Assembly: GCA_017656235.1 (NCBI GenBank)
Contig: JACDOF010000001.1
Span: forward strand, 496,001 to 560,000
DNA: 64,000 nucleotides
Direction: 5' to 3'
Source of the DNA: Brevibacillus sp.
GTDB lineage: Bacteria; Bacillota; Bacilli; Brevibacillales; Brevibacillaceae
Below the pieces are notes generated by a model that saw nothing but the letters and a program-made list of their open reading frames with translations, did not search any database and was not told the DNA's origin. This document shows positions 6,439 through 52,880 of this stretch, piece after piece (within the stretch, counting starts at the first letter, position 1; each line of letters opens with the position of its first letter). A program made the position numbers and the translations under genes.

Positions 6439-6512
6439 GCAGAGTCCTCATTCATACAGCCGCCTCCGCGGAGCCGGAAGCATACCCAGTTTGCCGGGAA
6501 GGAAGGAATAGG

Positions 6513-7286: not shown

Positions 7287-7297
7287 GGGGGCATCCC

Positions 7298-10884: not shown

Positions 10885-10934
10885 GCGCAGCAAGAGCGAC
10901 TGCGTGGAAGAACATGTCGAGGGAGGAGTTTCCA

Positions 10935-12134
10935 TTGAAAACAGCGGTTATTGTCGATGCAGTCCGCACCCCCATCGGTCGATACGGGGGAGCGTTGAAA
11001 GAGGTGCGACCTGATGATTTGGGCGCGCTGGTAATCCGTACCTTGATGGAACGAAATCCGTTTGATCCGCAGTTGATCGACGACGTTGTATTGGGCTGCG
11101 CCAACCAAGCCGGAGAAGATAACCGCAACGTGGCAAGAATGTCGCTGTTGTTGGCCGGGCTCCCTGTCGAGGTGCCGGGCGTGACCGTAAACCGTCTTTG
11201 CGGTTCCGGTCTTGAGGCAGTCAACCAAAGCGCCAATGCGATCGCGGCCGGAACGGGGCAGGTGTATGTCGCGGGCGGTACGGAAAGCATGACGCGAGCG
11301 CCGCTGGTGATGATGAAGCCAGGCGCCGCTTTTAAGCGAGGAAATCAACAACTGCATGACACAACGCTAGGCTGGAGGTTGGTAAACGATAAGCTGGCTG
11401 CTGTTTACCCGCCGATCAGTTTGGGAGAAACAGCGGAAAATGTAGCGGAGCAGTACGGGATTAGCCGTGAGGAGCAGGACCATTTCGCTCTTGAAAGCCA
11501 GCAGAAATGCGCCAAGGCGCAGGCGGAGGGGAAATTTGCCGCAGAGATCGTGCCCGTGGAGGTTGTCGGGCGAAAGGGAGAGGTCACGCTGTTTGAGCGC
11601 GACGAACATCCTCGACCTCAGACCACGCTGGAGCAGCTGAGCAAGCTGGCACCAGCCTTCAAACAGGGAGGAACGGTAACCGCAGGTAACTCCTCCGGCA
11701 TCAATGACGGAGCCTGCGCGTTATTGTTGATGGAGGAAGAGACGGCAGAGCGATTGGGGTTCAAGCCGCGTGCCCGAATTGTCGCCTCGGCAGTGGCCGG
11801 GGTAGATCCGGCGTTGATGGGGATCGGCCCGGTGCCTGCCACCCGCAAGGTGTTGACAAAAGCAGGCTTGACGATCGGGGATATCGATCTGTTCGAAATC
11901 AACGAGGCGTTTGCTGCTCAAGCCGTGGCAAGCGTTCGTGAATTAAACATCGATCCCGGGCGCGTCAACGTCAATGGTGGAGCGATTGCTCTCGGCCATC
12001 CGCTCGGCTGCAGCGGTGCGCGTATTTTGACTACCTTGCTGTACGAATTGGAGCGCCGGGAAGCTCGTTACGGTTTGGCAGCAATGTGTATCGGTGTTGG
12101 GCAGGGGATTGCCACTGTCATTGAGCGTGTGTAA
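10935..12134 (+). CDS. Second thiolase of the phenylacetate cluster
   Basis: A 399-residue thiolase with all catalytic parts: [40 protein letters not shown] and CIGVGQG. I take TTG 10935 as start ([18 protein letters not shown] follows, aligned with other thiolases) because GGGAGGAG lies 7 bases upstream; ATG 10914 and the open frame back to 10836 lack that. The phenylacetate route uses a 3-oxoacyl-CoA thiolase at two steps, so one enzyme per step is a reasonable inference. Confidence 0.9.
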
Positions 12135-35351: not shown

Positions 35352-37582
35352 GTGTCGATACGGCATCCTGCATTCCGCGAGGAGCAGTCGCGGCTGGAGT
35401 GGACAATTGGCGTGGTTGTGCGTGAGATCGAACTGCTGCGCGAAGATATCAGGGAAGCGACGGATGATTATGTCAAACAGATAGTCAATGACAAAAAAGC
35501 CAAGGAACTTCGCTATTTGGAGACAGCACGGGACAAACCGTACTTTGGCAGGGTCGACTTTCGCCAGGCAGAGGATGGGGAAAAGGAGACCGTCTATATC
35601 GGCAAGCGCGGCATCGTGGACAGCACCAATCTGGAAGCCGTGGTGATCGATTGGCGAGCGCCGATTGCCAGTCTGTTTTACAGCGGCGAGAGTAAAGAAG
35701 CCGCTTATCGGACGCCGCGCGGTATCGTCCATGGTGAGGTGACGCTGAAACGCAACTTTGCGATAGAACGAGGTGTGATTACCGGGATATACGATGGTGC
35801 ACTGAAAGAGACCATTCAAAGGGAACTGGGCTCGCCGGACGATTTCTTGAGCGAGGGTTTTCTGGATGAATTCCTGGCCTCCAGCCTGAATCAAACCAAC
35901 GACAGCAGGCTCAAGGACATTGTGGCAACGATTCAGGCGGAACAAAACGAGATTATTCGTGCCGAGAAAGACCGACCCGTGGTGGTTCAGGGGGTTGCCG
36001 GAAGTGGCAAGACGACCATCGCCCTGCACCGCCTATCGTATCTGATCTACAACTACCAGGATGCACTCTCTTCGCACAAGTTCATGGTGTTTGCCCCCAA
36101 CCGACTTTTCCTCCATTACATATCCGAAGTGCTGCCGGAGTTGGGCGTCGAAGACGTACAGCAGTCCACCTTTTTTGAGTGGGGCGTGGGAATGATCAAA
36201 TCCCAGCTGCCAAAAGGATGGCGGTTCATCGATCCACATCGCACGCTGCGTCTCTTTTTTGAGCAGGGTGCGGTACGATCGGCGGAACAGGCGATCACCA
36301 AGACCCGTCTCCGTTTCAAAGGATCGCTGGCCATGCGGGATACGCTGGATCGCTTTGTACAATATTTGATTGAGGAAGTGATACGATACCGTTTCGCCCG
36401 ATCCGGTTTCGCTACAAAAAAACGGATCAGATTTTCACCGTGTCCGGGAAAGAAATCCACAGGCTCTTTACTGTCCAATTTGCTTCGCAGCCGCTGACGC
36501 AGCGGGCAGCGACGCTGCGGAAGCACTTGAAACAGCACCTGACCAAACAATTCTTTGCTCATGTGCGCGAACTGAAGATGGATGTGGACAAGCAGGTGCT
36601 GCTCCGCTTTGAACAGCAGTTGGAGCGGATTCTTGACACCTATCTGGAAAACTGGCCTGTTTTCGATGTGTTTGCGATGTACCGTGATTTGCTTACCCGT
36701 CCTGAAATGCTGAGAAAACTGGCTCCTGAGTGGGTAAGTGACGAGGTTGTTACTGCGGTCAGCCAATCATCGAAAGAACTGTTTGATGAGCAGCGGATGG
36801 AGGCGGAAGATGTTGCCCCTCTTCTCTATCTTACGTTTCTGCTGCACGGGGTAGAAGAACCAATGTTTGATCATGCGGTTGTGGATGAAGCTCAGGATTT
36901 GAGCGCGCTGGAGATCTTGTTGATCACCATGATGACCAAACGGAATTCCGTGACCATCGTGGGTGACTTGGCGCAGGCGATTCATGCCTACCGCGGTTTG
37001 GAAAACTGGAATGAACTGCTTGATGGCGTCTTTAAAGGATCGGCCAGCTTCTACACACTCCGGCAGAGCTACCGTTCAACCGTCGAAATCATGCGCTTCG
37101 CTAATCGGATACTAAACCGCGTCAAACTTCCCAACATCACGCCGGCTGTACCCGTTTTGCGGCACGGAGCAGAGCCCCAGGTTGTCCCAGTGGAAACACA
37201 GCACAAGATGTATCAAGAAATTCTCAGCCGGATACGGTCGTGCCAGCAGGAGGGGTACAAATCCATTGCCGTGGTCACCAAAACGGCAGAACGCAGTCGA
37301 CGGGCTGCCAAGGCCCTTGGCTCGTATCTGCCGGAAGCTGCCCTCATCAGTGCAAAAGATGTGGAGTTTCCGGGAGGTGTCACGTTCATGCCTGCTTATC
37401 TGACCAAGGGACTGCAGTTTGACGTGGTCATTCTGCTGGATGTGGATGAGGAACCCTATCCACTGGAAGGGGAAACGGCCAAACTTCTGTACGTAGCCAC
37501 GACACGTCCGGTGCACCGGTTGATTATTTTCCACATCAAGGGGAAAGCGTCGCCTTTGCTGACAGCGACCAGCACGGATTGA
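35352..37582 (+). pseudogene. HelD-like UvrD-family helicase gene interrupted by a one-base frameshift
   Basis: HelD proteins remove stalled or idle RNA polymerase. The two frames together span about 743 codons, close to B. subtilis HelD (774). Frame one (35352-36497) has the N-terminal coiled coil and Walker A VAGSGKTTIALHRLSYL; it then runs off into KKRIRFSPCPGK. The second frame carries DEAQDLSALEILL, VGDLAQAIHAYRG, RQSYRSTVEIMRFAN and LLYVATTRPVHRL. Loss of one T near 36392-36394 or one A in the A7 run at 36416-36422 would explain the switch. All motifs are intact on either side, so it is recent, a sequencing error, or programmed. Confidence 0.85.
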
Positions 37583-37629: not shown

Positions 37630-37646
37630 TGGCAAGAATCTTGCAT
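37630..37646 (+). promoter_or_regulatory. Sigma-54 promoter before the tandem nitrilase gene
   Basis: TGGCAAGAATCTTGCAT: the -24 GG and -12 GC are spaced exactly as in TGGCAC-N5-TTGC, with one mismatch in the -24 element. It lies 63 bases before the start codon. Confidence 0.75.
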
Positions 37647-37708: not shown

Positions 37709-39454
37709 ATGGTACTGCAGAAACCTTTCAAAGTGGCCAGTGTTCAGTTTAATCCGAAGCTGGATGAAAGGGACGGCAATATCATCGCACTTCTGAAGGC
37801 TGTCGAAGAAGCCGCCGATAACGGGGCGAAATTGATTGTCACACCGGAAATGGCTACGACCGGCTATCACTACCACAGCAGAGAGGCCATTCAACCGTTT
37901 GTTGATACCATTCCAGGCTGTACGACCGATCAGTTCGCCGCATTGTGCCGCAAAAAGAATGTTTACGTCGTGGTCGGGATGCCGGAAGTAGATGCGGTTA
38001 CAGGCCTTTTCTACAATTCGGCAGCATTGATTGGACCGACAGGCTGGATCGGCACCTATCGGAAAGTCCACTTGTGGGAATTGGAGGCACACTGGGCAGT
38101 TCCCGGCGATTTGGGCATTCCGGTTTTTCCGACAGAATTGGGGAAAATAGCGATAAACATTTGCATGGATTCAATATTTTTTGAATCTGCCCGGCTGGCC
38201 GCATTGAAAGGTGCTGATATCCTGACTTTTCCGACCAATTCTACCGCACAGTCCATCTCTCTTCTGCAGGCCAGGGCCGAGTCAAACGGATTGTATGTCA
38301 TCAGCGCAAACCGATCCAACACCGAATGCGGTTACCATATGATTGGCGCTAGTGCAGTCTGGTCTCCCGCGGGAGAAAAGCTTGCTGAGTCTGTCTTTGT
38401 CCCTTCCCCTGAAGATGATATTCACGAGCCCTCCATCCTCTATGCAGAGATTGATCCGGCACAGTATCAGAACAAGGCAAAAGACAGAATGGACGAACGG
38501 AGACCGAGTATGTACAAGGAACTCATGCTGTATATATCGCCGTGGGATTATTCCCAAAAAAGCAGTCCGCGTGAATTGACGGTTGCCGCCATCCAGTACG
38601 AGCCTGTCCCAATGGGTATGTCGGAAAATTTGGAGAAAGCAAGGAGGCTGATCCAAACCGCTGCAGCTCATGCCGCTGCCGGAACAGCCAAGCTGTGCGT
38701 TTTGCCCGAGCTGTCTCTTACTGGACCTGTGTCTCTGCTCGAGCCACAGGAACGAATGCGCTTGGCCGAACCGGCAGATGGTCCTACGAGTCAGGTGATG
38801 AGAGAGTTGGCGCGCAGATACAAGACTGCAATCATTTATGGCTTCCTGGAAGAAAATGATGGTCGACTGTACAATTCTTGCGCGCTGATCAGTTCCGAAG
38901 GCCTGATCGAAGGAGTCTATCGACAGGTTCACCTTCGTCAGGAGGACAAGCAATGGGCGGCGCCTGGAGAAAGAATCAGCGTCATATCTTCCGCCGAGTT
39001 GGGCAGAGTTGGTATGATGATCGGGTATGATGCACTGTTTCCGGAAACAGCAGGGGTGCTGGCCGTTGGAAGAGCGGACTTGATTGCCATTCCAGCCAGC
39101 TTTGTCCAGGACGATGGAAAAGAGATTGCAATCAACCCGAGCATTTCCGCCAATCCCTACCCGGAAGGGGCCATCGCCATTCTCGACGCCATTGCAATTG
39201 GTTCACAGGCTTATACGGTCGTGGCCAACTTTACGGGAACGCAGCATCGCTTCACGGGGAGAAGTGGTATGTACACCCTTGACCCGCTCTATGGTTTGGA
39301 TCAACCTGTCATCGGGTCGGCGGATCGGGAAGAGGCGGTATTGGCGACGTGCACAACGATACAAGCAAATTGGTGGTTCCAGCAGGAAAAGCTGATCGCT
39401 GCACGACGTACGGCTGTATACAAACCACTGGTGTTCAACAACGCAAGAATGTAG
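37709..39454 (+). CDS. Tandem nitrilase-superfamily hydrolase, second half lacking catalytic residues
   Basis: A 581-residue protein made of two carbon-nitrogen hydrolase domains. Domain one (about 8-280) has the complete triad: Glu47 (VTPEM), Lys119 (YRKVHL) and Cys152 (INICMD), so it should hydrolyse an amide or nitrile. Domain two (about 290-575) keeps the fold and Glu334 (VLPEL) but has Gln406 for the Lys (YRQVHL) and Gly439 for the Cys (MIGYD). Single nitrilase enzymes are about 270-330 residues. ATG 37709 is preferred over TTG 37700. Followed by its likely regulators. Confidence 0.88.
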   Translation: MVLQKPFKVASVQFNPKLDERDGNIIALLKAVEEAADNGAKLIVTPEMATTGYHYHSREAIQPFVDTIPGCTTDQFAALCRKKNVYVVVGMPEVDAVTGLFYNSAALIGPTGWIGTYRKVHLWELEAHWAVPGDLGIPVFPTELGKIAINICMDSIFFESARLAALKGADILTFPTNSTAQSISLLQARAESNGLYVISANRSNTECGYHMIGASAVWSPAGEKLAESVFVPSPEDDIHEPSILYAEIDPAQYQNKAKDRMDERRPSMYKELMLYISPWDYSQKSSPRELTVAAIQYEPVPMGMSENLEKARRLIQTAAAHAAAGTAKLCVLPELSLTGPVSLLEPQERMRLAEPADGPTSQVMRELARRYKTAIIYGFLEENDGRLYNSCALISSEGLIEGVYRQVHLRQEDKQWAAPGERISVISSAELGRVGMMIGYDALFPETAGVLAVGRADLIAIPASFVQDDGKEIAINPSISANPYPEGAIAILDAIAIGSQAYTVVANFTGTQHRFTGRSGMYTLDPLYGLDQPVIGSADREEAVLATCTTIQANWWFQQEKLIAARRTAVYKPLVFNNARM

Positions 39455-39527: not shown

Positions 39528-41624
39528 ATGTTGCACTTTTTTCGTTCAAGAATTATGAAGCGGTATTTGCTTCTGACGTTGGTCGTCATTCTGTTTACGC
39601 TCACCTCACTTTATTACCTGACCATACAGGTATTGGATTCTTCCGTACGGGAACAGATTGAGCTGCGGGACGACTTGATCGCGAGGACGCTTGGCAAGCG
39701 AATTGGTTTCACCATCACAAAGATGCTTGATGACATGCGGTTTGCTTCCAGTTACGTCCGGAAGGTTAACGAGAGGGAGTTTTATCTGAGCGAAATGCAG
39801 GGCTTGGTAGCGCGCAATCCCCTTTATTTGAGCATTCAAGCTTATGACAAGGATGGCAGCTTGCTCGTTCGAATTCCGGATGTGACGATGTTTGACTCAA
39901 ACGAAATCAGGCGGATTCACGATCGACTGTCCTGGAGCAAAACCTACTATGTCTCCGATTTGATCACGTTGCAGGACGGAAGAAAAACGTTTGCCGTCGC
40001 CTACTCGGCCCTTGACGAGAATGAGGCGTTTCTAGGGGCGGTAATCGCGTTTGTCAACATTAACGTCCTCTCCGATTATCTGAAGGAACTCAAGATCGGG
40101 CAAAGAGGGATCAACGCTGTTGTGGACAGAGAGGGAAGACTCATTGCCGTGAGCAGCCGGGATATAGAAGGGACGTCGCTGAAAAACCATGTACTGGGTC
40201 AGTACTTGTACAAGGAAAGATTCGGCATCTGGGAAGGGGAACTGTTTGACCAGCGGATGATTGTCGCCTATCGGCCTGTCATCTATGGATTTGGTCTTAT
40301 CGTCGGCGAGCCGATCACGCAGTCGCTGGAGCCAGCCTATCATGTCATGATCGTATTGTTTCAGGGGTTCCTGGTCGTTTTGCTGATTGCTGTCGGGCTC
40401 GGTGTATACGGAACGGCCCGGGTCGTGAAACCGATTCTGGAGCTGACCTCACAGGTAAAGGAATACCGGGAAAACAAACGAAGGAAGTTCCGTCCGATCC
40501 TGACGAGAGATGAACTGCAGGATCTTTCCGTCGTGATGGGGGAAATGGCGAAAGAATTAACGGATAAAGAGAGAAGGCTGTTTTATATTCTGGAATCGAT
40601 TCCGTACTGTATTATCACCACAGATCGTAACGGCAAGATTACAACCTTTAACAAGGGGGCGGAAGAACTAACGCTGTACAAGCGGGAGGAAGTGATAGGG
40701 AAATCCATTGTCGACCTTCCGTTAAAGGCGAGCAGGGAAGATTTTATTTCCTTGAAAACCCTGCAAGAAGGCAAGGCGTTTGAAGAAACGGAAAGCTATA
40801 TTTATGATAAACATATGGTGAAGCATGACGTCCGGATCTACTCGTCCCTTTTTCACGGGGAATATAATGAAGTCGCCGGTACCATTATCGTCATGAAAGA
40901 TGTAAGCGATATCAAAAAACTGGAACTGTACTTGAAACAAAGTGAGCGGCTTGCTTCGCTGGGGCAATTGACAGCAGGGGTTGCACATGAGATCAAGAAT
41001 CCGTTAAGCATCATTCACGCAGCTGCAGAAGCGATCCAGCTTGAGCTGAAAGACGAACAGCCGAAACTGGCGCTTGTCTCCGAGTTGACAGGCGATATCC
41101 TGGAGTCGACAGACCGCATGAACCGGTTGCTTGCGGATTTCCTGAAGCTCTCCAAAGAAGAACCCGAAGGGAACCGCACCTGGCTGAACATCATTGAATT
41201 GCTGAATGAACTCCTGCACCTCCTGCGCAACAAATGGAACGATCGGGGAATCGAAGTCATCCGATCCTATGAAGCGGAAGAAGCATGGGTATTTGGTGAT
41301 AAAAACCGCCTTACCCAGGTGTTTTTAAATATTTTTCTCAACAGTTTGGATGCCATGGAGAATGGTGGAACGCTTATCGTTCGCGTGAAGGAAATAAAAC
41401 AACATTGGGAAATATCCGTTAGCGACACGGGCAAAGGAATCCCGCAGGGGACCCTGCGCTGGATCTTTAATCCTTTCTTTTCCACCAAACCGGAGGGGAC
41501 GGGATTGGGATTGTCCATTGCGCACGAGATCATCTTGCAGCACCAGGGGAAAATCTACGCCGATAGTGAGTTGGGGCAAGGTACCACGCTCTACGTTCAG
41601 CTGCCGAAAGAGAAGGGGGAATGA
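39528..41624 (+). CDS. Membrane sensor histidine kinase with dCache and PAS domains
   Basis: A 698-residue kinase. Membrane helices lie at about 10-32 and 275-300; between them is an extracellular Cache-type sensor of about 240 residues (YDKDGSLLVRIPD, RKTFAVAYSAL). Then HAMP, a PAS domain (LESIPYCIITTDRNGKITTFN), HisKA with the phosphoacceptor in GVAHEIKNPLS, and HATPase (NRLTQVFLNIFLNSLDAM, DTGKGIPQG, GTGLGLSIAHEI). GTGGGGGGAATAG precedes ATG 39528. Four-base overlap with the response regulator. An extracellular small molecule, perhaps the importer's substrate, is the likely signal. Confidence 0.92.
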   Translation: MLHFFRSRIMKRYLLLTLVVILFTLTSLYYLTIQVLDSSVREQIELRDDLIARTLGKRIGFTITKMLDDMRFASSYVRKVNEREFYLSEMQGLVARNPLYLSIQAYDKDGSLLVRIPDVTMFDSNEIRRIHDRLSWSKTYYVSDLITLQDGRKTFAVAYSALDENEAFLGAVIAFVNINVLSDYLKELKIGQRGINAVVDREGRLIAVSSRDIEGTSLKNHVLGQYLYKERFGIWEGELFDQRMIVAYRPVIYGFGLIVGEPITQSLEPAYHVMIVLFQGFLVVLLIAVGLGVYGTARVVKPILELTSQVKEYRENKRRKFRPILTRDELQDLSVVMGEMAKELTDKERRLFYILESIPYCIITTDRNGKITTFNKGAEELTLYKREEVIGKSIVDLPLKASREDFISLKTLQEGKAFEETESYIYDKHMVKHDVRIYSSLFHGEYNEVAGTIIVMKDVSDIKKLELYLKQSERLASLGQLTAGVAHEIKNPLSIIHAAAEAIQLELKDEQPKLALVSELTGDILESTDRMNRLLADFLKLSKEEPEGNRTWLNIIELLNELLHLLRNKWNDRGIEVIRSYEAEEAWVFGDKNRLTQVFLNIFLNSLDAMENGGTLIVRVKEIKQHWEISVSDTGKGIPQGTLRWIFNPFFSTKPEGTGLGLSIAHEIILQHQGKIYADSELGQGTTLYVQLPKEKGE

Positions 41625-42991
41625 GCGTGAGAAGGATATTGCTTGTGGACGATGAAATAAAGCTTCTGCGAATCCTGCAATCTTCCCTTGCCAAAAAGGG
41701 ATATCAGGTTTATACGGCCGCAAACGGCCATGAGGCACGGAAGCGAATCAGCGAGAAGCCGGTTGATGTGGTCTTTTTGGATCTGATGCTGCCGGATACG
41801 ACAGGTCTCCAATTATTGCAGGAGTTTTTGCCGCTGTATCCGCACAAAGCTTTTATTCTATTAACCGCATTTGGAAACGTGGAAAGTGCCGTAACGGCGA
41901 TGAAAGCGGGAGCGTTTGACTATATCGTCAAACCTGCTAAATTGGAAGAACTGGAAATCATCATCGAGAAGGCTTATGAATGGTTAGAGATGAAGCAGGA
42001 GAACCAGTTTTTGCGGGAAAAACTGAAATCCGCAGAAATAGCCCACGATCTGATTGCGTTCAGTCCGGAAATGAAGCGGATTGTTCAATTGGTAGAAAAG
42101 GTGGCGAATACGGATGCCACGGTTCTCCTGGATGGTGAGAGCGGTACTGGCAAAAGCCTGCTGGCGCGCAAGATTCATCATTTGAGCAGCAGGAGCAGGG
42201 CGCCGTTTGTATCGGTAAACTGCGCAGCCATTCCGGAACAATTGTTGGAAAGTGAACTGTTTGGTTACGAAAAAGGGGCATTTACGGGGGCGCAGGTAAG
42301 CAGACAGGGAAAGTTTGAAGCAGCTGATGGCGGTACCATTTTTTTGGACGAGATAGGAGAAATCACACCGGCTTTACAGGCGAAACTGCTGCAGGTAACA
42401 CAGGAAAAAACGTTTATGCGGCTGGGAAGCAATTCGGCCAAGCAGGTCGACGTTCGTATCATATCGGCCACCAATCGCGATTTGAAACGGATGGTGGAGC
42501 AAGGGGATTTTCGCGAGGATTTGTACTATCGCTTAAACATCATCAACATCTATATTCCTCCCTTGCGTGACAGAAAAGACGACATCCCGTTTTTGGTGGA
42601 AACGTTTCTGGAGCGGCACAGACAACGATACGGACGCAACTACCGCATTTCACCGGAATTGATGAATGTGCTGCAGGAATATCACTGGCCCGGAAATGTC
42701 CGGGAGTTGGAAAATGCGTTGGAAAGAGCTGTCGTGTTGTGCTCTGGAGAGAAGTTGTCCATCGAAGATTTCCCCAGAGAAATCAGGGAAATCAGAGAGC
42801 AGGTAAGCACATCTGGTCTCCAAACGTACAAACTGACGAAAACCCTGCCGGAGCAAATGGAAGAAATAGAAAAGAGGTTTATCCTCCAGGCGTTGGAAGA
42901 GGCCCACGGGCAAGCGGCTGCAGCCGCCAGGATTCTAGGGATTTCCCGTCAAAGTCTGCTTTACAAAATGAACAAGTATTTTATCAACTGA
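41621..42991 (+). CDS. NtrC-family sigma-54-dependent response regulator
   Basis: A 456-residue activator: receiver domain with Asp54 (FLDLMLP) and Lys in YIVKPAK, AAA domain with Walker A DGESGTGKSLLA, the sigma-54 contact loop GAFTGAQ (in GYEKGAFTGA), Walker B GGTIFLDEIGE and arginine-finger region LYYRLN, then a Fis-type helix-turn-helix (AAAARILGISRQSLLYKMNK) at the C-terminus. It needs sigma-54 promoters, and two good ones lie at 37630 and 43152, on either side. Confidence 0.95.
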   Translation: MSVRRILLVDDEIKLLRILQSSLAKKGYQVYTAANGHEARKRISEKPVDVVFLDLMLPDTTGLQLLQEFLPLYPHKAFILLTAFGNVESAVTAMKAGAFDYIVKPAKLEELEIIIEKAYEWLEMKQENQFLREKLKSAEIAHDLIAFSPEMKRIVQLVEKVANTDATVLLDGESGTGKSLLARKIHHLSSRSRAPFVSVNCAAIPEQLLESELFGYEKGAFTGAQVSRQGKFEAADGGTIFLDEIGEITPALQAKLLQVTQEKTFMRLGSNSAKQVDVRIISATNRDLKRMVEQGDFREDLYYRLNIINIYIPPLRDRKDDIPFLVETFLERHRQRYGRNYRISPELMNVLQEYHWPGNVRELENALERAVVLCSGEKLSIEDFPREIREIREQVSTSGLQTYKLTKTLPEQMEEIEKRFILQALEEAHGQAAAAARILGISRQSLLYKMNKYFIN

Positions 42992-43027: not shown

Positions 43028-43113
43028 ACGGCGGAGAAATAAACGTACAATTTAGCCTCCTGAACGCGGATAACTTGTTAAAATTTTTTTACGATTTGTC
43101 TAATTTTTTTACA
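43021..43113 (+). promoter_or_regulatory. Phased TTTTTTTAC repeats, candidate activator binding region
   Basis: TTTTTTTACG at 43021-43030, TTTTTTTACG at 43084-43093 and TTTTTTTACA at 43104-43113. Spacings are 63 and 20 bases, about six and two helical turns. The last copy is about 38 bases upstream of the sigma-54 -24 element. The first copy doubles as the T-run of the terminator, so it may be incidental. Confidence 0.4.
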
Positions 43114-43151: not shown

Positions 43152-43168
43152 TTGGCACGATTCTTGCT
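43152..43168 (+). promoter_or_regulatory. Sigma-54 promoter of the OpuC-like operon
   Basis: TTGGCACGATTCTTGCT matches TTGGCAC-N5-TTGCW in full. It is 46 bases before the first permease gene and 150 bases after the gene of an NtrC-type activator. Confidence 0.9.
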
Positions 43169-43213: not shown

Positions 43214-43861
43214 ATGGAACTGGCGGCATTCATTCAAAACAATTGGACCGATTTGTTACGACTGACTTGGGAACACGTCCAGCTTGTGGGATTGGCTGTA
43301 AGCGTTTCCGTCCTGACGGGAGTGCCGTTTGGCATCTACATCGCGCAAAGAGAAATACTGGCTAACCTGGTCCTGACCGTAGCCGGTATTGTCATGACGA
43401 TTCCCAGTATTGCGCTATTTGGCATCATGATCCCGATCTTGTCCTATATTGGTCACGGTATCGGATTTCTGCCAGCCTTTCTGGCTCTTGTGCTTTACTC
43501 GCAGCTACCCATTATCCGCAATACGTACATTGCGATCAAGAATGTCAACCCGGACTTGCGGGAAGCCGCGATTGGCATGGGGATGACTACCTGGGAACGT
43601 CTGACCAAGGTTGAGATCCCCATGGCACTGCCTGTGATCATGGCAGGTGTCCGCATGGCCGTTGTTTTGACGATCGGAATTGGCGCCATTGCCGCCTATA
43701 TTGGAGCAGGTGGTTTGGGTGAGTACATCGCCAGAGGGATATCTACCAGCTACGAGACGATGGTTCAGGCGGGAGCCATTGCTGTCTCCCTGCTGGCGCT
43801 GGTTGTCGACTTTGTTTTGGGGAGTGTGCAAAAAAGACTTTCTCCCAAGACGGCCAGGTGA
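43214..43861 (+). CDS. OpuC-type (glycine betaine/choline family) ABC permease, first
   Basis: A 215-residue permease with about six hydrophobic segments. VSVLTGVPFGIYIAQRE, TIPSIALFGIMIPIL and the EAA-like loop REAAIGMGMTTWERLTKVEIP (interrupted here by length) are typical of OpuCB/OpuCD. ATG 43214 follows AAGGGGGGAG. First gene behind the sigma-54 promoter. Family substrates are quaternary amines such as betaine, choline and carnitine; the true substrate here is unknown. Confidence 0.88.
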   Translation: MELAAFIQNNWTDLLRLTWEHVQLVGLAVSVSVLTGVPFGIYIAQREILANLVLTVAGIVMTIPSIALFGIMIPILSYIGHGIGFLPAFLALVLYSQLPIIRNTYIAIKNVNPDLREAAIGMGMTTWERLTKVEIPMALPVIMAGVRMAVVLTIGIGAIAAYIGAGGLGEYIARGISTSYETMVQAGAIAVSLLALVVDFVLGSVQKRLSPKTAR

Positions 43862-43885: not shown

Positions 43886-44890
43886 ATGATCCGTTTTAAA
43901 AATGTGACGAAAACGTATGAAAGTGAAAACAAGTCGGTAACCGCTGTTGACAATGTCAGTCTTGAGGTGGAAGCTGGACACATTTGCGTCTTTCTCGGGC
44001 CTTCCGGTTGCGGCAAGACTACGCTCCTTCGCATGGTGAATCGGCTCATTCCGATCACCAGCGGGACGATTGAGATTAACGGGAAAGAGATTCAATCGTT
44101 CGACGTCATCGAATTGCGGCGATCAATTGGATATGTCATCCAGCAAACGGGACTCTTCCCCAACATGACCATTGAGGAAAACATCTGTGTCGTCCCGCAG
44201 CTCCTGGGGTGGGACCGCGTGAAGATGAAGCAGCGGTATAACGAGTTGATGGATATGATGGGACTGAATCCTGATGAATACCGCAACCGGTATCCGTGGG
44301 AACTGTCCGGTGGTCAGCAGCAGCGAATCGGGGTAGCGAGAGCCTTGGCTGCCGATCCTCCGGTGATGCTGATGGACGAACCGTTTGGAGCCCTTGATCC
44401 GATCATTCGGGAACGGCTGCAAAACGAATTTTTGCGAATTCAAGGGGACGTAAAAAAAACAATCCTGTTCGTCAGCCATGATATCGATGAAGCAATCAAA
44501 CTGGGAGATACAATCGCGATTTTTCAGGCGGGTCGATTGATGCAGCACGGAACGCCGGATGAAATCCTGGCCAATCCGCAAGACCAGTTTGTCTCGGAAT
44601 TTGTCGGAAATGATCGCGCATTAAAGCGTCTTACTCTGTTTACGGTAAGAGAGCTTTTGAAAAAAGCAGGCTCCGGCACGGGAAAGGCCAGCGCCAATAA
44701 GTTGGCAGCAACCTCACAGGTACATGTGGATGCCAATCTGCGTACCGCTCTGTCCGTCATATTGTCTTCCGATACGGGTGAAGCTGCCGTTGTAGATGAT
44801 CAAGGCCAATCCGTAGCTGTGCTGCGTCTTGCAGACTTTGAATCGTTTACGGGAATCCACCCGAAACGACTGACATCGATCGTTCAATAG
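43886..44890 (+). CDS. OpuC-type ABC transporter ATP-binding protein
   Basis: A 334-residue ATPase. Walker A GPSGCGKTTLLRM (about residues 36-48), Q-loop YVIQQTGLFPNM, signature LSGGQQQRIGVARAL, Walker B VMLMDEPFGALDP and switch LFVSHDIDEA are intact. After about residue 240 only one CBS-like repeat remains (VHVDANLRTALSVIL, AAVVDDQGQSVAVLR), whereas osmoregulatory OpuCA/OpuAA proteins have a CBS pair. That suggests nutrient uptake instead of osmosensing. Confidence 0.88.
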   Translation: MIRFKNVTKTYESENKSVTAVDNVSLEVEAGHICVFLGPSGCGKTTLLRMVNRLIPITSGTIEINGKEIQSFDVIELRRSIGYVIQQTGLFPNMTIEENICVVPQLLGWDRVKMKQRYNELMDMMGLNPDEYRNRYPWELSGGQQQRIGVARALAADPPVMLMDEPFGALDPIIRERLQNEFLRIQGDVKKTILFVSHDIDEAIKLGDTIAIFQAGRLMQHGTPDEILANPQDQFVSEFVGNDRALKRLTLFTVRELLKKAGSGTGKASANKLAATSQVHVDANLRTALSVILSSDTGEAAVVDDQGQSVAVLRLADFESFTGIHPKRLTSIVQ

Positions 44891-44900
44891 GGGGATTCGT

Positions 44901-45638
44901 ATGAAGGGAAGACAAACGGAAAGAATCATACGCGGTTTTCTCTATTTGATTATCGCCGCCTTTTTGCTCTGGGCCTACAGATCGGGCGCATTTCAGTTCA
45001 TTTTGGACAATCCCGACGATCTCTTGTACCTGTTGAAACAACATATTGAATTGGTGGCGCTTTCATCGTTTCTGGCCGTCATGGTATCCGTTCCAGTCGG
45101 GATACTGGTTACCAGACCCAGGTTTCGGAAATATGCCTGGATCGCCGTCAACACCGCCAACATCGGTCAAACCATTCCCAGCCTGGCCGTACTTGCGCTG
45201 GTATTGACATACTTTGGCATTGGTTATTTCACCGCCGTCTTCGCGCTCTGGGTCTATTCCCTCCTTCCGATCCTGCGAAATACCATTGCGGGAATTGAAA
45301 ACATCAATCCATCCATCATTGACGCAGGGAAGGGGATGGGCATGACATCTCGGCAAATCCTGTGGAGGCTGGAGCTGCCCAATGCCTTGTACGCCATCTT
45401 GGCGGGCATCCGAACCTCCATCGTAATCAATGTAGGGACGGCTGCCTTGGCATTTTTGATCGGAGGAGGTGGTTTGGGCGATCTCATTTTCACCGGCATT
45501 TCACTGTATGATACCGGGATCATGCTTGCAGGAGCGCTGCCGGTGACGCTATTGGCCATTACGCTCGATTATGTCCTGGGTAAGGCGGAAAAATGGATCA
45601 TTCCAAAAGGATTGCAGCGCAATCTCGACCACGTATAG
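44901..45638 (+). CDS. OpuC-type ABC permease, second
   Basis: A 245-residue permease homologous to the first one (VSVPVGILVTRPRF, NIGQTIPSLAVLALVLTYFG, DAGKGMGMTSRQILWRLELP). An N-terminal cytoplasmic stretch and one extra helix make it longer. ATG 44901 follows AGGGGGA. Permease-ATPase-permease-binding protein is a variant of the OpuC order. Confidence 0.88.
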   Translation: MKGRQTERIIRGFLYLIIAAFLLWAYRSGAFQFILDNPDDLLYLLKQHIELVALSSFLAVMVSVPVGILVTRPRFRKYAWIAVNTANIGQTIPSLAVLALVLTYFGIGYFTAVFALWVYSLLPILRNTIAGIENINPSIIDAGKGMGMTSRQILWRLELPNALYAILAGIRTSIVINVGTAALAFLIGGGGLGDLIFTGISLYDTGIMLAGALPVTLLAITLDYVLGKAEKWIIPKGLQRNLDHV

Positions 45639-45657
45639 GGGAAAGGGGACATCGAAA

Positions 45658-46617
45658 ATGAAAAAGACTGTAAAAAGCCGCATCCTATCTGTCTTGTTGG
45701 TATCGCTGATGACCGGATTGTTGACCGCTTGTGCAGGAACAGGTCAACCGGCGGAGGGGCAAACGGGTCAGGCCCAACAGGGAGAAGCGGCAAAAGGGCC
45801 CATTACGGTGGGGGGAAAAGACTTTACCGAGCAGCATTTATTGACAAAATTGACCGCGATTTATTTGAAAGAAAAAGGGTACGACGTCAGTGAAGCGAGC
45901 AATATGGGAAGTACGGTCGTCCGCTCAGCACTGGAAAATGGACAGATTGATCTTTACTGGGAATACACGGGGACGGCGCTCGTCGTCTATCAAAAACAGC
46001 CTGTCGAAACGGACCCGGATAAAGCCTACGAAAAAGTGAAGGAAAAGGATAAGGAGAACAAGCTTGTCTGGCTGAACAAAGCCAACTTCAACAATACCTA
46101 CGCCATTCTCATGCGTCAGGACAAAGCGAATGAATTGGGGATCAAAACCATTTCCGATCTGGCCAAGTACGTGAACGAAAATCAGTATGCGCTAAAGTTT
46201 GCATCCAACGCGGAGTTCTACGCTCGTGAGGACGGCATCAAAGGTCTGGAGAGAAAATACGATTTCTCATTCCCGGCAAAAAACGTGACCAAGATGGATT
46301 CGGGATTGCTCTACAACGCTCTGAAAGAAAAGCAGGTTGACGTTTCGGTGGGGTTTGCCACAGACGGACGAATCAAAGGATTTGATCTTGTCGCGTTAGA
46401 GGATGATCAACAGTTCTTCCCCGCCTACAACGGTGCTCCTGTCATCCGTCAGGAAGTGCTGGACAAACACCCGGAATTGGCTGATCTCTTGAATGAGCTG
46501 GCTGACCGCTTGGATACCGAAACCATGATGAAACTGAATTACAGCGTCGACGTGGAACACAAAGATGAATCCGAGGTAGCACGAGAGTGGCTGGCATCTG
46601 AAAAACTGATCAACTAA
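45658..46617 (+). CDS. OpuC-type substrate-binding lipoprotein
   Basis: A 319-residue binding protein. The signal peptide ends in LLTAC with Cys25 as lipid anchor, then a Gln/Gly-rich linker. The mature domain shows the OpuAC fold: VGGKDFTEQHLL, NMGSTVVRSALENGQIDLYWEYTGT cut here to under the family's long motif, and the late GFATDGRIKGFDL. ATG 45658 is preferred (GAAAGGGG upstream) over the frame open to 45571. Ligand unknown. Confidence 0.88.
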   Translation: MKKTVKSRILSVLLVSLMTGLLTACAGTGQPAEGQTGQAQQGEAAKGPITVGGKDFTEQHLLTKLTAIYLKEKGYDVSEASNMGSTVVRSALENGQIDLYWEYTGTALVVYQKQPVETDPDKAYEKVKEKDKENKLVWLNKANFNNTYAILMRQDKANELGIKTISDLAKYVNENQYALKFASNAEFYAREDGIKGLERKYDFSFPAKNVTKMDSGLLYNALKEKQVDVSVGFATDGRIKGFDLVALEDDQQFFPAYNGAPVIRQEVLDKHPELADLLNELADRLDTETMMKLNYSVDVEHKDESEVAREWLASEKLIN

Positions 46618-46657: not shown

Positions 46658-47980
46658 GTGGTGAACAGCCGGCTAAGCGCATACATTCTTCAAGATGAAC
46701 CGCTTGAACATTGTGATGAACAAATCGTTCGCTGTGTCAAGGAGGCGTTGATGGACCTCATCGGATGCACCATTGCTGGATCGAAGGCAGATGTATCCGG
46801 GATGGTTCGGCGGTTTGCCGTCCGTCATTGGGCAAAGGGGAGAAGTTCCGTTATGTTGTCCAATCATAAGCTGCAGCCGACAGGGGCTGCATTGGTAAAC
46901 GCAACGATGGCCAACGCCCTTGACATGGATGATGGGCATCGCTTGACGAAAGGACATCCGGGGGCAGTAGTCTTTCCGGCGGTGCTGGCAGCGGCAGAGG
47001 ACTGTCAGGCAACAGGGAGGCAGTTCCTTACCTCTCTCCTTGTTGGCTATGAAGTTGCGATCAGGGCGGGAATGACTGCCCACCAACTTCGTCCCGAATA
47101 TCATTGTACGGGTTCGTGGGGGGCACTGGGTGCTGCGGCGGGAGTGGCCAGAATCTTGGGGTTGTCAGCCGAGGAAACCGAACATGCCTTGGGAATCTCC
47201 GAATATCATTCCACATACTCGCCGATGATGCGCTGCATTGATCATCCTTCCATGTTGAAAGATGGCATCGGATGGGGATGCATGACGGGGATCAGTTCCG
47301 CATACATGGCGAAAGAAGGATTTACTGGTATTCCATCCTTGTTTTCGCAGGAATCGTCGAAGGAACTTGTCTCTGAGTTGGGGGAGAAGTATCGGATTGA
47401 GCAGCTGTATTACAAGCCGTACGCCTGTTGCCGATGGGCTCAACCGGCAGTGGAAGGGGTAAAACTCCTGGTGGAGGAAAACCGGTTATCCCCGCACATG
47501 ATCGAAAGACTGGTGATTCACACGTTTACGGAGTCTTCACGATTGATGAAGCGGATGCCTGCCAATACGGAAGAGGCACAATACAATTTGTACTTTCCGG
47601 TAGCGGCGTACCTTATCTTTGGTGAAGTCGGTCCTCGACAGGTGCTGGACGAGCTGGAAAACGAACAGATCCGCGAAGTAATGACAAAAATGGAAACTGT
47701 GATTGACTCACACCTGGATGCGCAGTTCCCTGCAAAGGCATTGTGCAAGGTGGAACTGTTCACCATCGATGGCAGGCGGTTTATGTCCCCTGTGATGCAG
47801 GCGCGAGGAGACTTTGATTATCCGCTCACATCAGCGGAGAAGAGAGATAAATTCGTCTGGCTCACTGAGCCGGTCATCGGAACAGCAGAAAGTATCAAAC
47901 TACTCAATCTGATCGAGCATGTTGATGAACTCCAAAACATTTCCGACCTGACAGCAGCCATACCACCGGGAGCAGTGTAA
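46658..47980 (+). CDS. MmgE/PrpD family protein
   Basis: A 440-residue member of a family that includes 2-methylcitrate dehydratase, cis-aconitate decarboxylase and iminodisuccinate epimerase. The helical domain shows ALDMDDGHRLTKGHPGAVVFP (about residues 88-108), LLVGYEVAIRAG, and YKPYACCRWAQPAVEG near 250. The start is GTG 46658 or 46661 (AGGGGAG upstream). Substrate cannot be told; in this operon it likely acts on a di- or tricarboxylic acid or amino acid derivative carried in by the importer. Confidence 0.85.
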   Translation: MVNSRLSAYILQDEPLEHCDEQIVRCVKEALMDLIGCTIAGSKADVSGMVRRFAVRHWAKGRSSVMLSNHKLQPTGAALVNATMANALDMDDGHRLTKGHPGAVVFPAVLAAAEDCQATGRQFLTSLLVGYEVAIRAGMTAHQLRPEYHCTGSWGALGAAAGVARILGLSAEETEHALGISEYHSTYSPMMRCIDHPSMLKDGIGWGCMTGISSAYMAKEGFTGIPSLFSQESSKELVSELGEKYRIEQLYYKPYACCRWAQPAVEGVKLLVEENRLSPHMIERLVIHTFTESSRLMKRMPANTEEAQYNLYFPVAAYLIFGEVGPRQVLDELENEQIREVMTKMETVIDSHLDAQFPAKALCKVELFTIDGRRFMSPVMQARGDFDYPLTSAEKRDKFVWLTEPVIGTAESIKLLNLIEHVDELQNISDLTAAIPPGAV

Positions 47981-48106: not shown

Positions 48107-48997
48107 ATGATGAGAGAACGAAAAATATCATTTTACAGCGAAGGATACAAACTGGATGGTACCGTCTACCTTCCGGATGATTACCAGCCAGGTGAAAAAC
48201 GACCTGCGATTATTCCCAATTCCGGATACAACGGGTTTAACGAGTTTTATCCGCGTCTGTTCGCACGGAATTTGACCAAAGCGGGGTATGTCTGCCTCGG
48301 TTTTGACTACAGGGGCTTTGCCAATAGTGAAGGAAAGCCCGGCAGGGTGATTTTGGATGAACAGGTGGAGGACATCAAAAACGCGATTACCTTCTTGCGT
48401 ATACAGGACGAAGTAAATCCTGACCAAATCGGACTGATCGGATGGGGAATGGGTGCATCCAACGTTGTACGGGTGGCCGCAGCAGACAAACGCGTAAAAG
48501 CAGTTGCCGCCCTGAACGGTTTCTTCAACGGGGAGAGATGGCTGAGATCGATTCATTCCTATGTTGAATGGAATCACATTTTACAGGTAATGGAGGAAGA
48601 TCGGATTCGGCGCGTTACGACAGGGGAATCTCTGTTGGCCGACCCGTTCATTCATTATCCGCTGGACCCGGCGACAGATGATTACGTGCAGAAGGAATTG
48701 GCTCCTCTTTCTCCGTTTGGCAAGCAGACCGCGCTTCAGTTTACGGAATCGATCGCAACGATGAATGCGGAAAAGGTAGTGGCCGATATTTCACCCCGTC
48801 CACTTTTTGTCGCTCACGGCAAGGATAATCTGCTGCATCCGGTTGACGAGTCGCTTTCCCTTTTTGAAGCGGCGAAAGAACCCAAACAGCTCTACTTGAT
48901 CGACGGAAAACACAACGACTTCATGTATCATGAGCATCCGGTATTTCAGGACCTGGTGAGCCGATTGAAGGAGTTCTTTGAGCAGAGTTTGAAATAA
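48107..48997 (+). CDS. Alpha/beta hydrolase-fold protein without the nucleophile Ser
   Basis: A 296-residue protein of the dienelactone-hydrolase/acyl-esterase type. The fold markers are present: RPAIIPNSGYNGF, GFDYRGFANSEG, and the late acid and base segments HGKDNLLHP and DGKHNDFM. The nucleophile elbow, however, reads GWGMGAS, so residue 114 is Gly where GxSxG needs Ser. It may be inactive toward esters, use another residue, or work as a different enzyme such as a lyase. ATG 48107 follows TGGGAGGA. Confidence 0.82.
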   Translation: MMRERKISFYSEGYKLDGTVYLPDDYQPGEKRPAIIPNSGYNGFNEFYPRLFARNLTKAGYVCLGFDYRGFANSEGKPGRVILDEQVEDIKNAITFLRIQDEVNPDQIGLIGWGMGASNVVRVAAADKRVKAVAALNGFFNGERWLRSIHSYVEWNHILQVMEEDRIRRVTTGESLLADPFIHYPLDPATDDYVQKELAPLSPFGKQTALQFTESIATMNAEKVVADISPRPLFVAHGKDNLLHPVDESLSLFEAAKEPKQLYLIDGKHNDFMYHEHPVFQDLVSRLKEFFEQSLK

Positions 48998-49228: not shown

Positions 49229-50107
49229 ATGTCTTTGTTTCATCCGCTGTTAAAAGGAGCCATTGAACTGCACTGCCACAGCTATCCCAGTCTGTTTCCG
49301 CGCCGACAAACGGACTGGGAATTGATTCAAGATGTCAAAGCTGCCGGGATGGCAGGAGTGGTGTTAAAATCTCATGAGTCACAAACCGTTGACCGCGCCA
49401 GCCTGATTCGCATGAAGGAGCCTGACTTGCTGGTATACGGCGGACTGGTGTGCAATCACTTTACGGGTGGATTGTCGCCTGCGGCGGTAGATGCGGCCAT
49501 CCGGCTGGGAGCAAAGGTGATCTGGATGCCGACGCTGTCTTCCAAGGAGCACCAGTGTCATTTTGGAAAAAAAAAGACGCGTTTTTTCAACACGGAACGG
49601 CCGCTCCTGCACCCGGATGAAGGGCTGGAAATATGGGATGAAAACCGTCGTATATTGCCCAACGTACACGAAATTCTTGCCCTGATTGGAGAAGCTGACA
49701 TCGTGCTGGCCACCGGTCACCTGCATGCTGACGAAGTGATGGCGCTGGTTGCAGCGGCAAAACAGCACAAGGTGGAAAAAATCCTGGTACAGCACGCTGA
49801 TTTGGGTATCGCCCCTGTCCCGCTGGACCTGCAGATGCAGCTCGCCAGGCAGGGGGCCATTTTGGAGAAGTGCTACTTGGCATGCAGTTCCGATTTTCGT
49901 GATTTGAGTGTAGCGCAAATGGCTGATACCATCAGCCAGATCGGGGCGGACGCCTGCGTGTTGGTGACAGACTACGGGCAGCTTCACAACATCCCGCCTA
50001 TTGCGGCCTTGAGCGAATTTGTGGAGCAGCTGCTTCGCTGCGGTATCCGTCAAGGGGACATCGAAAAAATGCTGGTTAAAAACCCGCGGGCCTTGTTAGG
50101 CGTCTGA
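49229..50107 (+). CDS. DUF6282 family protein (metal-dependent hydrolase-like)
   Basis: A 292-residue protein with an amidohydrolase/PHP-like layout: IELHCHSYPS (residues about 12-21) with an HxH metal motif, VLKSHE (about 45), TGHLHADE (about 170), QHADLG (about 193) and TDYGQLHN (about 250), enough His and Asp for a metal site. The reaction is unknown. ATG 49229 has GAGGAAGGG upstream. The preceding 231-base gap (48998-49228) shows nothing I can name. Confidence 0.72.
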   Translation: MSLFHPLLKGAIELHCHSYPSLFPRRQTDWELIQDVKAAGMAGVVLKSHESQTVDRASLIRMKEPDLLVYGGLVCNHFTGGLSPAAVDAAIRLGAKVIWMPTLSSKEHQCHFGKKKTRFFNTERPLLHPDEGLEIWDENRRILPNVHEILALIGEADIVLATGHLHADEVMALVAAAKQHKVEKILVQHADLGIAPVPLDLQMQLARQGAILEKCYLACSSDFRDLSVAQMADTISQIGADACVLVTDYGQLHNIPPIAALSEFVEQLLRCGIRQGDIEKMLVKNPRALLGV

Positions 50108-50130: not shown

Positions 50131-51537
50131 ATGAAGAAGCACGTGTTGGAGCAGATCCTTGCGATTGTTCCAAAGGAGCGTGTGTTACTCGATTTGGCGG
50201 AGCGATATTCCTACAGTTTTGATGCCTCTTTCGGACAGTATCTTCCGGACGTCGTCATTCAACCCGAAACGGCACAGGAAATCAGTCAGCTTGTGAAATT
50301 GGCCAATCAATACCTGATTCCCGTCTATCCTCGGGGGGCCGCCACATCCCTCAGTGGTGGCCCGCTGCCGGTTGAAGGTGGCATGGTGCTGGACATGTCG
50401 CGGATGAACAAAAAGTTGATTATTGATCGGGAGAACTTGCTTGCCATAGTCTCGCCGGGAGTGATCACGGCGGATGTACACAAGAGAGCGGAGGAAGTGG
50501 GGCTTTTTTACCCGCCTGATCCGAGCAGTTCCCACGTCTCCACGATTGGCGGGAATCTGCTTGAAAACTCCAGCGGGCCGAAAGGGCTGAAGTACGGAAC
50601 GACGAAGGAGTACGTCATCGGACTGGAGGTAGTGACACCGACTGGCGAGATCATCCGCACGGGCGGGAAAACCGTAAAAAATGTGACAGGTTATGACCTC
50701 ACCAGGCTTATCGTCGGTTCGGAAGGGACATTGGGGATTGTTACGGAAGCCATCTTGCGGCTCATTCCCAAACCGCTGGCGCGAAAAACGCTGTTGGCAA
50801 CGTTTCACCGATTGGAAGACTCTGGTCATGCCATCACCAAAATACTATCATCAGGAATACTGCCGGCCGCAATGGAATTAATGGACAACGCATGTATCCG
50901 CTCGGTGGAACAATACTCCCCGTGTGGCCTGCCGGTCGATGCGGAGGCCCTGATCATTATCGAGGTAGACGGACACCCGATGGCGGTGGAAGAGGAAATC
51001 AGGATATGTGAGCAGCTTTGTTATGAGCAGGGGGCGGCTCACGTGCGAGTGGCGCAAAACGAGAGCGAGCGAACGGACATCTGGAAAGCAAGAAAAATGG
51101 TATCGCCTGCGATTACCCAAATGGGCCCGACAAAAATCTCCGAAGATGCGACAGTGCCGCGCAGTCAAATCCCCGAAATGATGAGGCGGCTTGCCCAAAT
51201 TCGCGACAAATATCAATTGAATCTGGTGGTTTTTGGACATGCTGGAGACGGGAATCTTCACCCCAACATCATCACCGACAAACGCAACAAGGAAGAAATG
51301 AAGCGTGTGGAAGAGGCTGTAGGTGAAATATTTGAGGCGGCGGTTTCATTGGGCGGGACACTATCCGGAGAGCATGGGATCGGTACGATGAAGGCCCCAT
51401 ATATGGAGATGGAATTGGGCGAAGCGGGCTTGATGATGATGAAAAAACTGAAGCAGGCGTGGGACCCGAATCATATTATGAACCCTGGCAAAATCTTTCC
51501 GAAACCGGGACAGACGAGGGTGGTGTTGACGGAATGA
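50131..51537 (+). CDS. FAD-linked 2-hydroxyacid oxidase, GlcD-like
   Basis: A 468-residue flavoprotein of the glycolate oxidase/D-lactate dehydrogenase group. The FAD-binding domain has YPRGAATSLSGG (about 69-80), PPDPSSSHVSTIGGNL, GLKYGTT and VGSEGTLGIVTEA; the C-terminal domain has VFGHAGDGNLHPN (about 368) and LSGEHGIGTMK. It likely oxidises a 2-hydroxyacid and passes electrons to the iron-sulphur partner encoded next. GlcE is absent. It overlaps the next gene by 4 bases. Confidence 0.9.
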   Translation: MKKHVLEQILAIVPKERVLLDLAERYSYSFDASFGQYLPDVVIQPETAQEISQLVKLANQYLIPVYPRGAATSLSGGPLPVEGGMVLDMSRMNKKLIIDRENLLAIVSPGVITADVHKRAEEVGLFYPPDPSSSHVSTIGGNLLENSSGPKGLKYGTTKEYVIGLEVVTPTGEIIRTGGKTVKNVTGYDLTRLIVGSEGTLGIVTEAILRLIPKPLARKTLLATFHRLEDSGHAITKILSSGILPAAMELMDNACIRSVEQYSPCGLPVDAEALIIIEVDGHPMAVEEEIRICEQLCYEQGAAHVRVAQNESERTDIWKARKMVSPAITQMGPTKISEDATVPRSQIPEMMRRLAQIRDKYQLNLVVFGHAGDGNLHPNIITDKRNKEEMKRVEEAVGEIFEAAVSLGGTLSGEHGIGTMKAPYMEMELGEAGLMMMKKLKQAWDPNHIMNPGKIFPKPGQTRVVLTE

Positions 51538-52880
51538 ACCCGTACACATCGCAAACAGAGAAAGCGACCCAGCCGAACCCCCGGGCCTCCAACCTGTTTG
51601 AGCTGACATATGATGCTACCAATCAATGTGTTCAGTGCGGTTATTGTTTGCCGGTCTGTCCCACTTACGAATCGATGGGTAGAGAGTCTGCCTCTCCGCG
51701 GGGCAGGATTAATCTGGTGAAAATGGCGGCAGAGGGCAAAATCGACATTGATGAACATTTGGCAAGTCCGATCGATCTATGTTTGGGCTGCCGGGCATGT
51801 GAGGTGGCTTGTCCGGTAGGCGTTCCGTACGGACATATCCTGGAGTCGACCAAAGAAGTAATAGCCGGGAATGAGCAGGGCAGGCACGCTTCCGCGCGAA
51901 GTCACGTGCTGAAAAAAGCGCTGCTGACCAAACTGTTTCCAAAACCGGGGCGCCTGCGGATATTGGGTAATCTCGTCTGGATCTATCAAAAGCTGGGTCT
52001 GGGCAATCTAATCCGCAAAACGAAGGTACTGGAAGCGATCTCTCTTCCGGCAGCACAATTTGAAAAAGTCCTGCCACGGCTGGAATCGCCGGTTAAACGA
52101 ACCCGTTGGGGAGCGGTTTTCCCTGCCAAAGGCAAGAAAAAGGCACGGGTCGCCTTCTTTACCGGATGTATTATGGATGCACTGATGTACCAAACCAACC
52201 GGCTGACAATTGAACTGCTTGTCCTTGCCGGGTGTGAAGTCGTGATACCGAGGAAACAAAACTGCTGCGGCGCGCTGCACGCACACCAGGGCCTGATTGC
52301 CGAGGCAAAAGAGTTGGCCAAGGCAAATATCGAGGCCTTTGAGCAGTCCCAAGCCGACTACTATATCAACAATGCCGGGGGATGTGGCGCATCTCTGCGT
52401 GAATACGATCATCTGTTGGCTGGAGAAGACGATTGGGAGGAGCGCGCCAGAGCATTCGTAGACAAATCGAGAGATATCACGGAGATTCTTGTTGAACTGG
52501 GCCCCCTGCCGTTTTTGAATGAATGGAAAGGTATCATTACCTATCAGGATTCTTGCCACTTGCGGAACGTACAGGGAGTCGTGAACCAGCCGCGACAGCT
52601 GCTCAAGTCAATCCCGGGCGCCACGTATGTGGAACTGGAGGGAAGCGAGAGCTGCTGTGCTTCGGGAGGAATCTACAATCTTCTTCATTTTCATGAATCG
52701 ATGAAAATATTGGATGCCAAAATGGAGAAGGTGGAGAAAACGAAAGCGACCACAATTGTGACCACGAACCCGGGGTGTTTGCTGCAAATGAAGCTTGGCG
52801 TGGAAAGGCAAGGGAGAGAAAGGGAAGTACGGGTACTGCATATCGTAGAGGTTTTGGCCGAAGCGTGCGGAGTGAAGTAG
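51534..52880 (+). CDS. Iron-sulphur oxidoreductase subunit, GlcF-like
   Basis: A 448-residue partner of the flavoprotein. Two [4Fe-4S] motifs near the N-terminus, CVQCGYCLPVCP (about residues 33-44) and CLGCRACEVACP (about 83-94), and two CCG domains farther on (CCGALHAHQG near 245, and SCHLRNVQGV with CCASGG). Electrons probably go to the quinone pool. ATG 51534 overlaps the previous stop (ATGA); the open frame reaches back to 51459. Confidence 0.9.
   Translation: MNPYTSQTEKATQPNPRASNLFELTYDATNQCVQCGYCLPVCPTYESMGRESASPRGRINLVKMAAEGKIDIDEHLASPIDLCLGCRACEVACPVGVPYGHILESTKEVIAGNEQGRHASARSHVLKKALLTKLFPKPGRLRILGNLVWIYQKLGLGNLIRKTKVLEAISLPAAQFEKVLPRLESPVKRTRWGAVFPAKGKKKARVAFFTGCIMDALMYQTNRLTIELLVLAGCEVVIPRKQNCCGALHAHQGLIAEAKELAKANIEAFEQSQADYYINNAGGCGASLREYDHLLAGEDDWEERARAFVDKSRDITEILVELGPLPFLNEWKGIITYQDSCHLRNVQGVVNQPRQLLKSIPGATYVELEGSESCCASGGIYNLLHFHESMKILDAKMEKVEKTKATTIVTTNPGCLLQMKLGVERQGREREVRVLHIVEVLAEACGVK

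Follow-up and report, generated by a model that had tools for sequence, protein, structure and literature searches.

A gene in the 64,000-nucleotide stretch of Brevibacillus sp. DNA analysed here (the window) encodes two nitrilase folds in a single chain, one with a complete active site and one without a nucleophile. The locus raises the question of what the second half contributes to such an enzyme. The original prediction placed Glu47, Lys119 and Cys152 in the first domain and Glu334, Gln406 and Gly439 in the second, and proposed that the second half takes the place of the usual homodimer partner or binds a regulator or substrate. All six residues are found at exactly these positions in the open reading frame, and one live site combined with one dead site proves to be real and conserved over 34 tandem homologues.

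Domain organization and active-site residues

The gene and its key codons are as follows.

37709..39454, + strand: tandem CN-hydrolase (nitrilase-fold) protein, 581 aa, live domain 1 and dead domain 2, intact ORF
37709..38557, + strand: domain 1 (D1), residues 1-283, predicted catalytic, with a complete tetrad of E47, K119, E126 and C152
37847..37849, + strand: Glu47 codon, D1 catalytic base
38063..38065, + strand: Lys119 codon, D1
38162..38164, + strand: Cys152 codon, D1 nucleophile
38558..39451, + strand: domain 2 (D2), residues 284-581, nitrilase fold without nucleophile, a pseudoenzyme domain
38708..38710, + strand: Glu334 codon, D2
38924..38926, + strand: Gln406 codon, Lys position of D2
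39023..39025, + strand: Gly439 codon, Cys position of D2

Each half on its own matches the Pfam CN_hydrolase family (6.8e-46 and 3.9e-30), with 157 and 105 bits against a curated cut-off of 23.2 bits, and a comparison of one half with the other shows homology (32% over 140 aa, E 3e-18). The second half is thus a CN_hydrolase domain, and the C-terminal synthetase domain of NAD+ synthase is absent. The Glu-Lys-Cys site required in the nitrilase superfamily is present in D1 of 34/34 tandem proteins and in D2 of 0/34. The NCBIfam equivalog for archaeal-type nitrilase (NF040852) gives 269.5 bits for the whole protein and 179.1 for D1, below its cut-off of 500, and that for N-carbamoylputrescine amidase (TIGR03381) gives 172.9 bits, below 410. 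Since no NCBIfam equivalog passes its cut-off, a specific activity is not transferable to the window protein.

Conservation across the tandem homologues

The proposed search for the same fusion was run through the family, class and phylum of the window and through plasmids, and the resulting alignment holds 34 tandem proteins of 521-640 aa. Their sources are the genus and family of the window, other Bacilli, other classes of Bacillota and plasmids of Agrobacterium, Rhizobium, Pantoea and Klebsiella, and they span two phyla, Bacillota and Proteobacteria. Glu47, Lys119, Cys152 and Asp154 of D1 are present in 34/34, and position 126 is E or D in 34/34. At the Cys position of D2 there is Gly in 33 proteins, Asp in one and Cys in none, and the missing nucleophile is therefore a family trait. 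Position 334 is Glu in 32/34, a sign of continuing constraint on the dead pocket, and position 406 is Lys in 23 and Gln in 11, with no other residue. At least five Lys-to-Gln changes are forced by well-supported branches and six occur on the best tree, in a count that leaves out one very distant Klebsiella plasmid protein (L066). The nucleophile has indeed been lost, as predicted, but not recently: the Cys-to-Gly change is ancient and family-wide, whereas Lys-to-Gln is lineage-specific and recurrent. Recent pseudogenisation of D2 is ruled out by the 34 intact members, and local decay in the window gene by the same pattern across all of them.

The prediction would have to be revised if other residues of D2 supplied the catalytic Lys and Cys, and none that do so are found in the 34 tandems. 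No replacement nucleophile appears among the three D2 cysteines, which are nowhere conserved across the alignment, and of the other lysine columns only position 560 is even moderately conserved (K in 19/34), so that rescue by another D2 Cys or Lys is ruled out by column conservation. D2 might still be a different kind of catalyst, using Glu, Lys and a water molecule without a Cys nucleophile, since Glu334 is kept and Lys406 is kept in most members. This is the least credible of the readings considered, because the Lys is lost in 11/34, L066 lacks the Glu as well and an alternative nucleophile is conserved nowhere in D2.

In 99% of pairs D2 is the faster-diverging half, with a mean identity of 33% compared with 46% for D1, and between the window protein and its nearest relative D2 is 57% and D1 74% identical. 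That conservation falls below D1 so consistently would suit a functionless, decaying remnant. Such a remnant is nevertheless very improbable: D2 is intact in 34 members of two phyla, keeps its length, fold and pocket despite the faster divergence, has a confidently predicted fold and retains invariant positions (P333, G398, G435, P445 and E446) together with a near-invariant G439. The dead-pocket residues are among the most conserved D2 columns (Gly439 28/28, Glu334 27/28, Asp441 25/28), and position 440 is freely variable. In the nitrilase superfamily the nucleophile is located on a tight turn following a strand, and a Gly at the former Cys position is plausible as structural relief after loss of the Cys; the invariance of Gly439 is for this reason not in itself proof of ligand binding. 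A C-terminal R..Y motif is kept in both halves, R264/Y269 being invariant in D1 and Y571/L574 nearly so in D2, which suggests that both tails are in use, as would fit a pseudo-dimer.

Origin of the fusion

In a quick, midpoint-rooted tree built from D1 and D2, taken as separate sequences, and from single-domain homologues, 30/31 D1 copies fall in one clade (SH-aLRT 99) and a branch with support of 89 has all D2 copies on the same side. The topology is consistent with a single ancient fusion event, and the Klebsiella plasmid protein L066, distant and on a long branch, may stand apart. Two adjacent single genes in one genome (L017 and L026 in G277) were considered as the unfused ancestor and rejected, as both are live single nitrilases; because both keep the Cys, the pair is not a split tandem. 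A phage origin was likewise rejected, with no match in the phage collection.

Predicted structure and the role of the second half

The structure prediction gives a rigid two-domain chain. The AlphaFold2 model of the window protein, computed from 27 rows of tandem homologues, has a pLDDT of 92 and a pTM of 0.92, and both halves show the strand and helix order of the nitrilase fold. Against superfamily structures TMt is 0.89-0.90, in agreement with the alpha-beta-beta-alpha fold, with the Pyrococcus amidase bound to glutaramide (6ypa) and 3ivz ranking highest. As such a pTM is unexpected for a chain with loosely placed domains, the model argues for a fixed arrangement of D1 and D2. Members of the superfamily universally dimerise across the A-surface (PMC4700190).

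The protein is probably a single-chain, asymmetric amidase of the nitrilase superfamily, in which D1 catalyses and D2 is a built-in dimer partner. D1 would be a functional amidase with a Glu-Lys-(Glu)-Cys site, its nearest kin being the Pyrococcus amidase/nitrilase group. D2 would be an anciently fused copy whose nucleophile was permanently lost by the change of Cys to Gly, and which may serve as a covalent, obligate partner across the A-surface, so that each pseudo-dimer would have a single active site. Replacement of the homodimer partner is thus the best-supported part of the original proposal, drawing on A-surface pairing (PMC4700190), the rigid model and the tail motifs, although the geometry is a predicted one.

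Against pure scaffolding counts the retention in the dead pocket of Glu (32/34), of Lys or Gln only and of Asp. The other part of the proposal, that the second half binds a regulator or substrate, gains from these retained residues but ranks as a rival to the partner role. As a ligand sensor, the D2 pocket would still bind a ligand (the substrate, the product or a similar amide) but not hydrolyse it, and its occupancy would tune D1 through the shared interface. Glu334, Lys/Gln406 and Asp413 stand out against a fast-evolving background, with pocket residues among the most conserved of D2 and Lys406 replaced by Gln alone, and beta-ureidopropionase of the same superfamily is cooperatively regulated by substrate and product (PMC10741476). 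The Glu and the Gly elbow may, however, be retained for folding alone, and position 440 varies freely, so that a sensor is a possible but distinctly less likely reading. In a slightly more doubtful form of the idea, the dead half would be a conserved allosteric receptor: a nitrilase pocket without its nucleophile that senses the substrate or product of its own pathway and gates D1 within the same chain.

In this natural single-chain pair, with one half permanently dead, each half can be mutated separately. The role of one nitrilase subunit for the other is otherwise hard to test, since the subunits of the dimer are identical.

The gene cluster and its sigma54 sites

The tandem gene is followed by regulatory, transport and metabolic genes, with two sigma54-type promoters.

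37630..37645, + strand: sigma54 -24/-12-like promoter TGGCAAgaatcTTGCA, 79 bases before the tandem start codon, in the same place in three relatives
39528..41624, + strand: sensor histidine kinase (dCache, PAS, HisKA, HATPase)
41621..42991, + strand: NtrC/AtoC-type sigma54-activating response regulator
43153..43168, + strand: sigma54 promoter TGGCACgattcTTGCT, perfect consensus, 61 bases before the ABC operon, kept in relatives
43214..43861, + strand: ABC permease (ProW/OpuC type)
43886..44890, + strand: ABC ATPase (ProV type)
44901..45638, + strand: second ABC permease (ProW/OpuC type)
45571..46617, + strand: OpuAC/OsmF/ProX-like substrate-binding protein, the ORF start probably too far upstream
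46658..47980, + strand: MmgE/PrpD family protein
48107..48997, + strand: alpha/beta hydrolase
49229..50107, + strand: DUF6282 protein
50131..51537, + strand: GlcD-like FAD-linked 2-hydroxyacid dehydrogenase
51459..52880, + strand: GlcF-like iron-sulfur subunit, the ORF start probably too far upstream

Only three sigma54 sites of such quality occur in the 24 kb around the cluster, two of them at the heads of the tandem and ABC genes, and the genome encodes RpoN. Both sites recur in three close relatives (79-82 bases before the tandem gene and 63-66 before the ABC genes), and further relatives have sigma54 sites at other heads of the cluster. Judged from these sites, the tandem gene is predicted to head a sigma54-controlled regulon. 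Two direct copies of AATTTTTTTAC at 43082-43112 (+) precede the sigma54 site of the ABC operon and are possible candidate binding sites for the activator. The binding protein is related to binders of quaternary amines (choline, glycine betaine, carnitine and ergothioneine), and no paper on DUF6282 was found in the searched literature. Upstream, at 35352-37582 (+), the coding sequence of a HelD-type RNA polymerase recycling motor is broken, by a frameshift or an assembly error, into two ORFs (35352-36497 and 36440-37582) that overlap and lie in different frames; they match HelD positions 84-360 and 462-775.

In the proposed pathway, the sensor kinase and the NtrC-type activator would control the import and enzyme genes as a sigma54 regulon, and the OpuC-type transporter would import a small compound, probably quaternary-ammonium or betaine-like. 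D1 would free ammonia from an amide (or nitrile) of this compound, and the resulting acid may then be oxidised by the GlcDF-type dehydrogenase.

Gene context in relatives

In relatives at 51-65% identity the window partner genes recur in changed order. The histidine kinase, regulator, OpuC-type ABC, hydrolase, DUF6282, GlcD, GlcF and MmgE genes are syntenic in unrelated families of Bacilli, and a Priestia plasmid locus retains GlcD, GlcF, DUF6282 and the hydrolase. Most window partners are missing from 4/12 close members, and two of those four adjoin methyltransferases. Two 60%-identical relatives, from another class of Bacillota, adjoin quaternary-amine methyltransferases of the MTTB type, a pterin-binding methyltransferase and an MFS carrier, and one of them (L068) also has an MtgC-like corrinoid protein. 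The MTTB-family genes beside the tandem have no in-frame stop (L068 4186-5628; L069 5389-6942 and 12603-14051), and the L068 protein scores above the trimethylamine (pyrrolysine) equivalog cut-off.

A distant Proteobacterial clade adjoins urea/amide-type ABC importers with AmiC-like and ANTAR regulators, and the Pantoea tandem has a cytosine-type permease and an AmiC/ANTAR pair nearby. An acetamidase/formamidase (FmdA) gene lies beside a Klebsiella tandem and beside a second Bacilli tandem. On a Klebsiella plasmid (L066), the very distant tandem at 5989-7656, with 10647-11956, has nitrile hydratase genes and a regulator of the sigma54 type in its vicinity, and in its D2 the Cys is replaced by Asp and the Glu by Ala. 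Two shorter tandems (521-535 aa, L040 and L041) share a conserved neighbourhood that encodes radical SAM, GNAT, amidohydrolase, MTHFR-like, AIRS-like and FMN reductase proteins and seems more biosynthetic than catabolic.

The tandem neighbourhoods suggest that small amides or related nitrogen compounds are broken down, and for the window clade the putative substrate leans towards quaternary amines. As the context differs between clades, it names no single substrate. The clusters suggest new candidate substrates for amide or nitrile catabolism.

Comparison with known systems

Vanin and biotinidase have an N-terminal nitrilase domain and an extra C-terminal domain, as in the layout of the window protein. 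The vanin base domain resembles MYDGF and not nitrilase (PMC6901522), and a vanin-like base domain for D2 is ruled out by that study and the Pfam match.

The best match to D1 in both sequence and fold is the Pyrococcus amidase/nitrilase group (PH0642, PaNit; 1j31, 3ivz, 6ypa), with 36-38% identity over ~265 residues and the E-K-C set in common. These enzymes differ in being one-domain chains of ~262 aa, whose partner is a second identical subunit.

The tandem architecture is probably already in CDD as cd07578/cd07579 (nitrilase_1_R1 and R2), an uncharacterised two-nitrilase-domain subgroup. Its length and two-domain pattern are like those of the window protein, and the entry presumably just lists two repeats. 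Searches of the literature for two nitrilase domains, nitrilase pseudoenzymes and the CDD name found no paper describing a dead second site. The plasmid homologues carry the NCBI product name 'nitrilase-related carbon-nitrogen hydrolase', which in the searched literature appears in just two species descriptions.

The aliphatic amidase amiEBCRS system is known from Pseudomonas, and next to the clade-B tandem relatives there are likewise a binding protein resembling AmiC and a regulator of the ANTAR (AmiR-like) kind. The window operon differs from it in using a sigma54 two-component system and a tandem enzyme.
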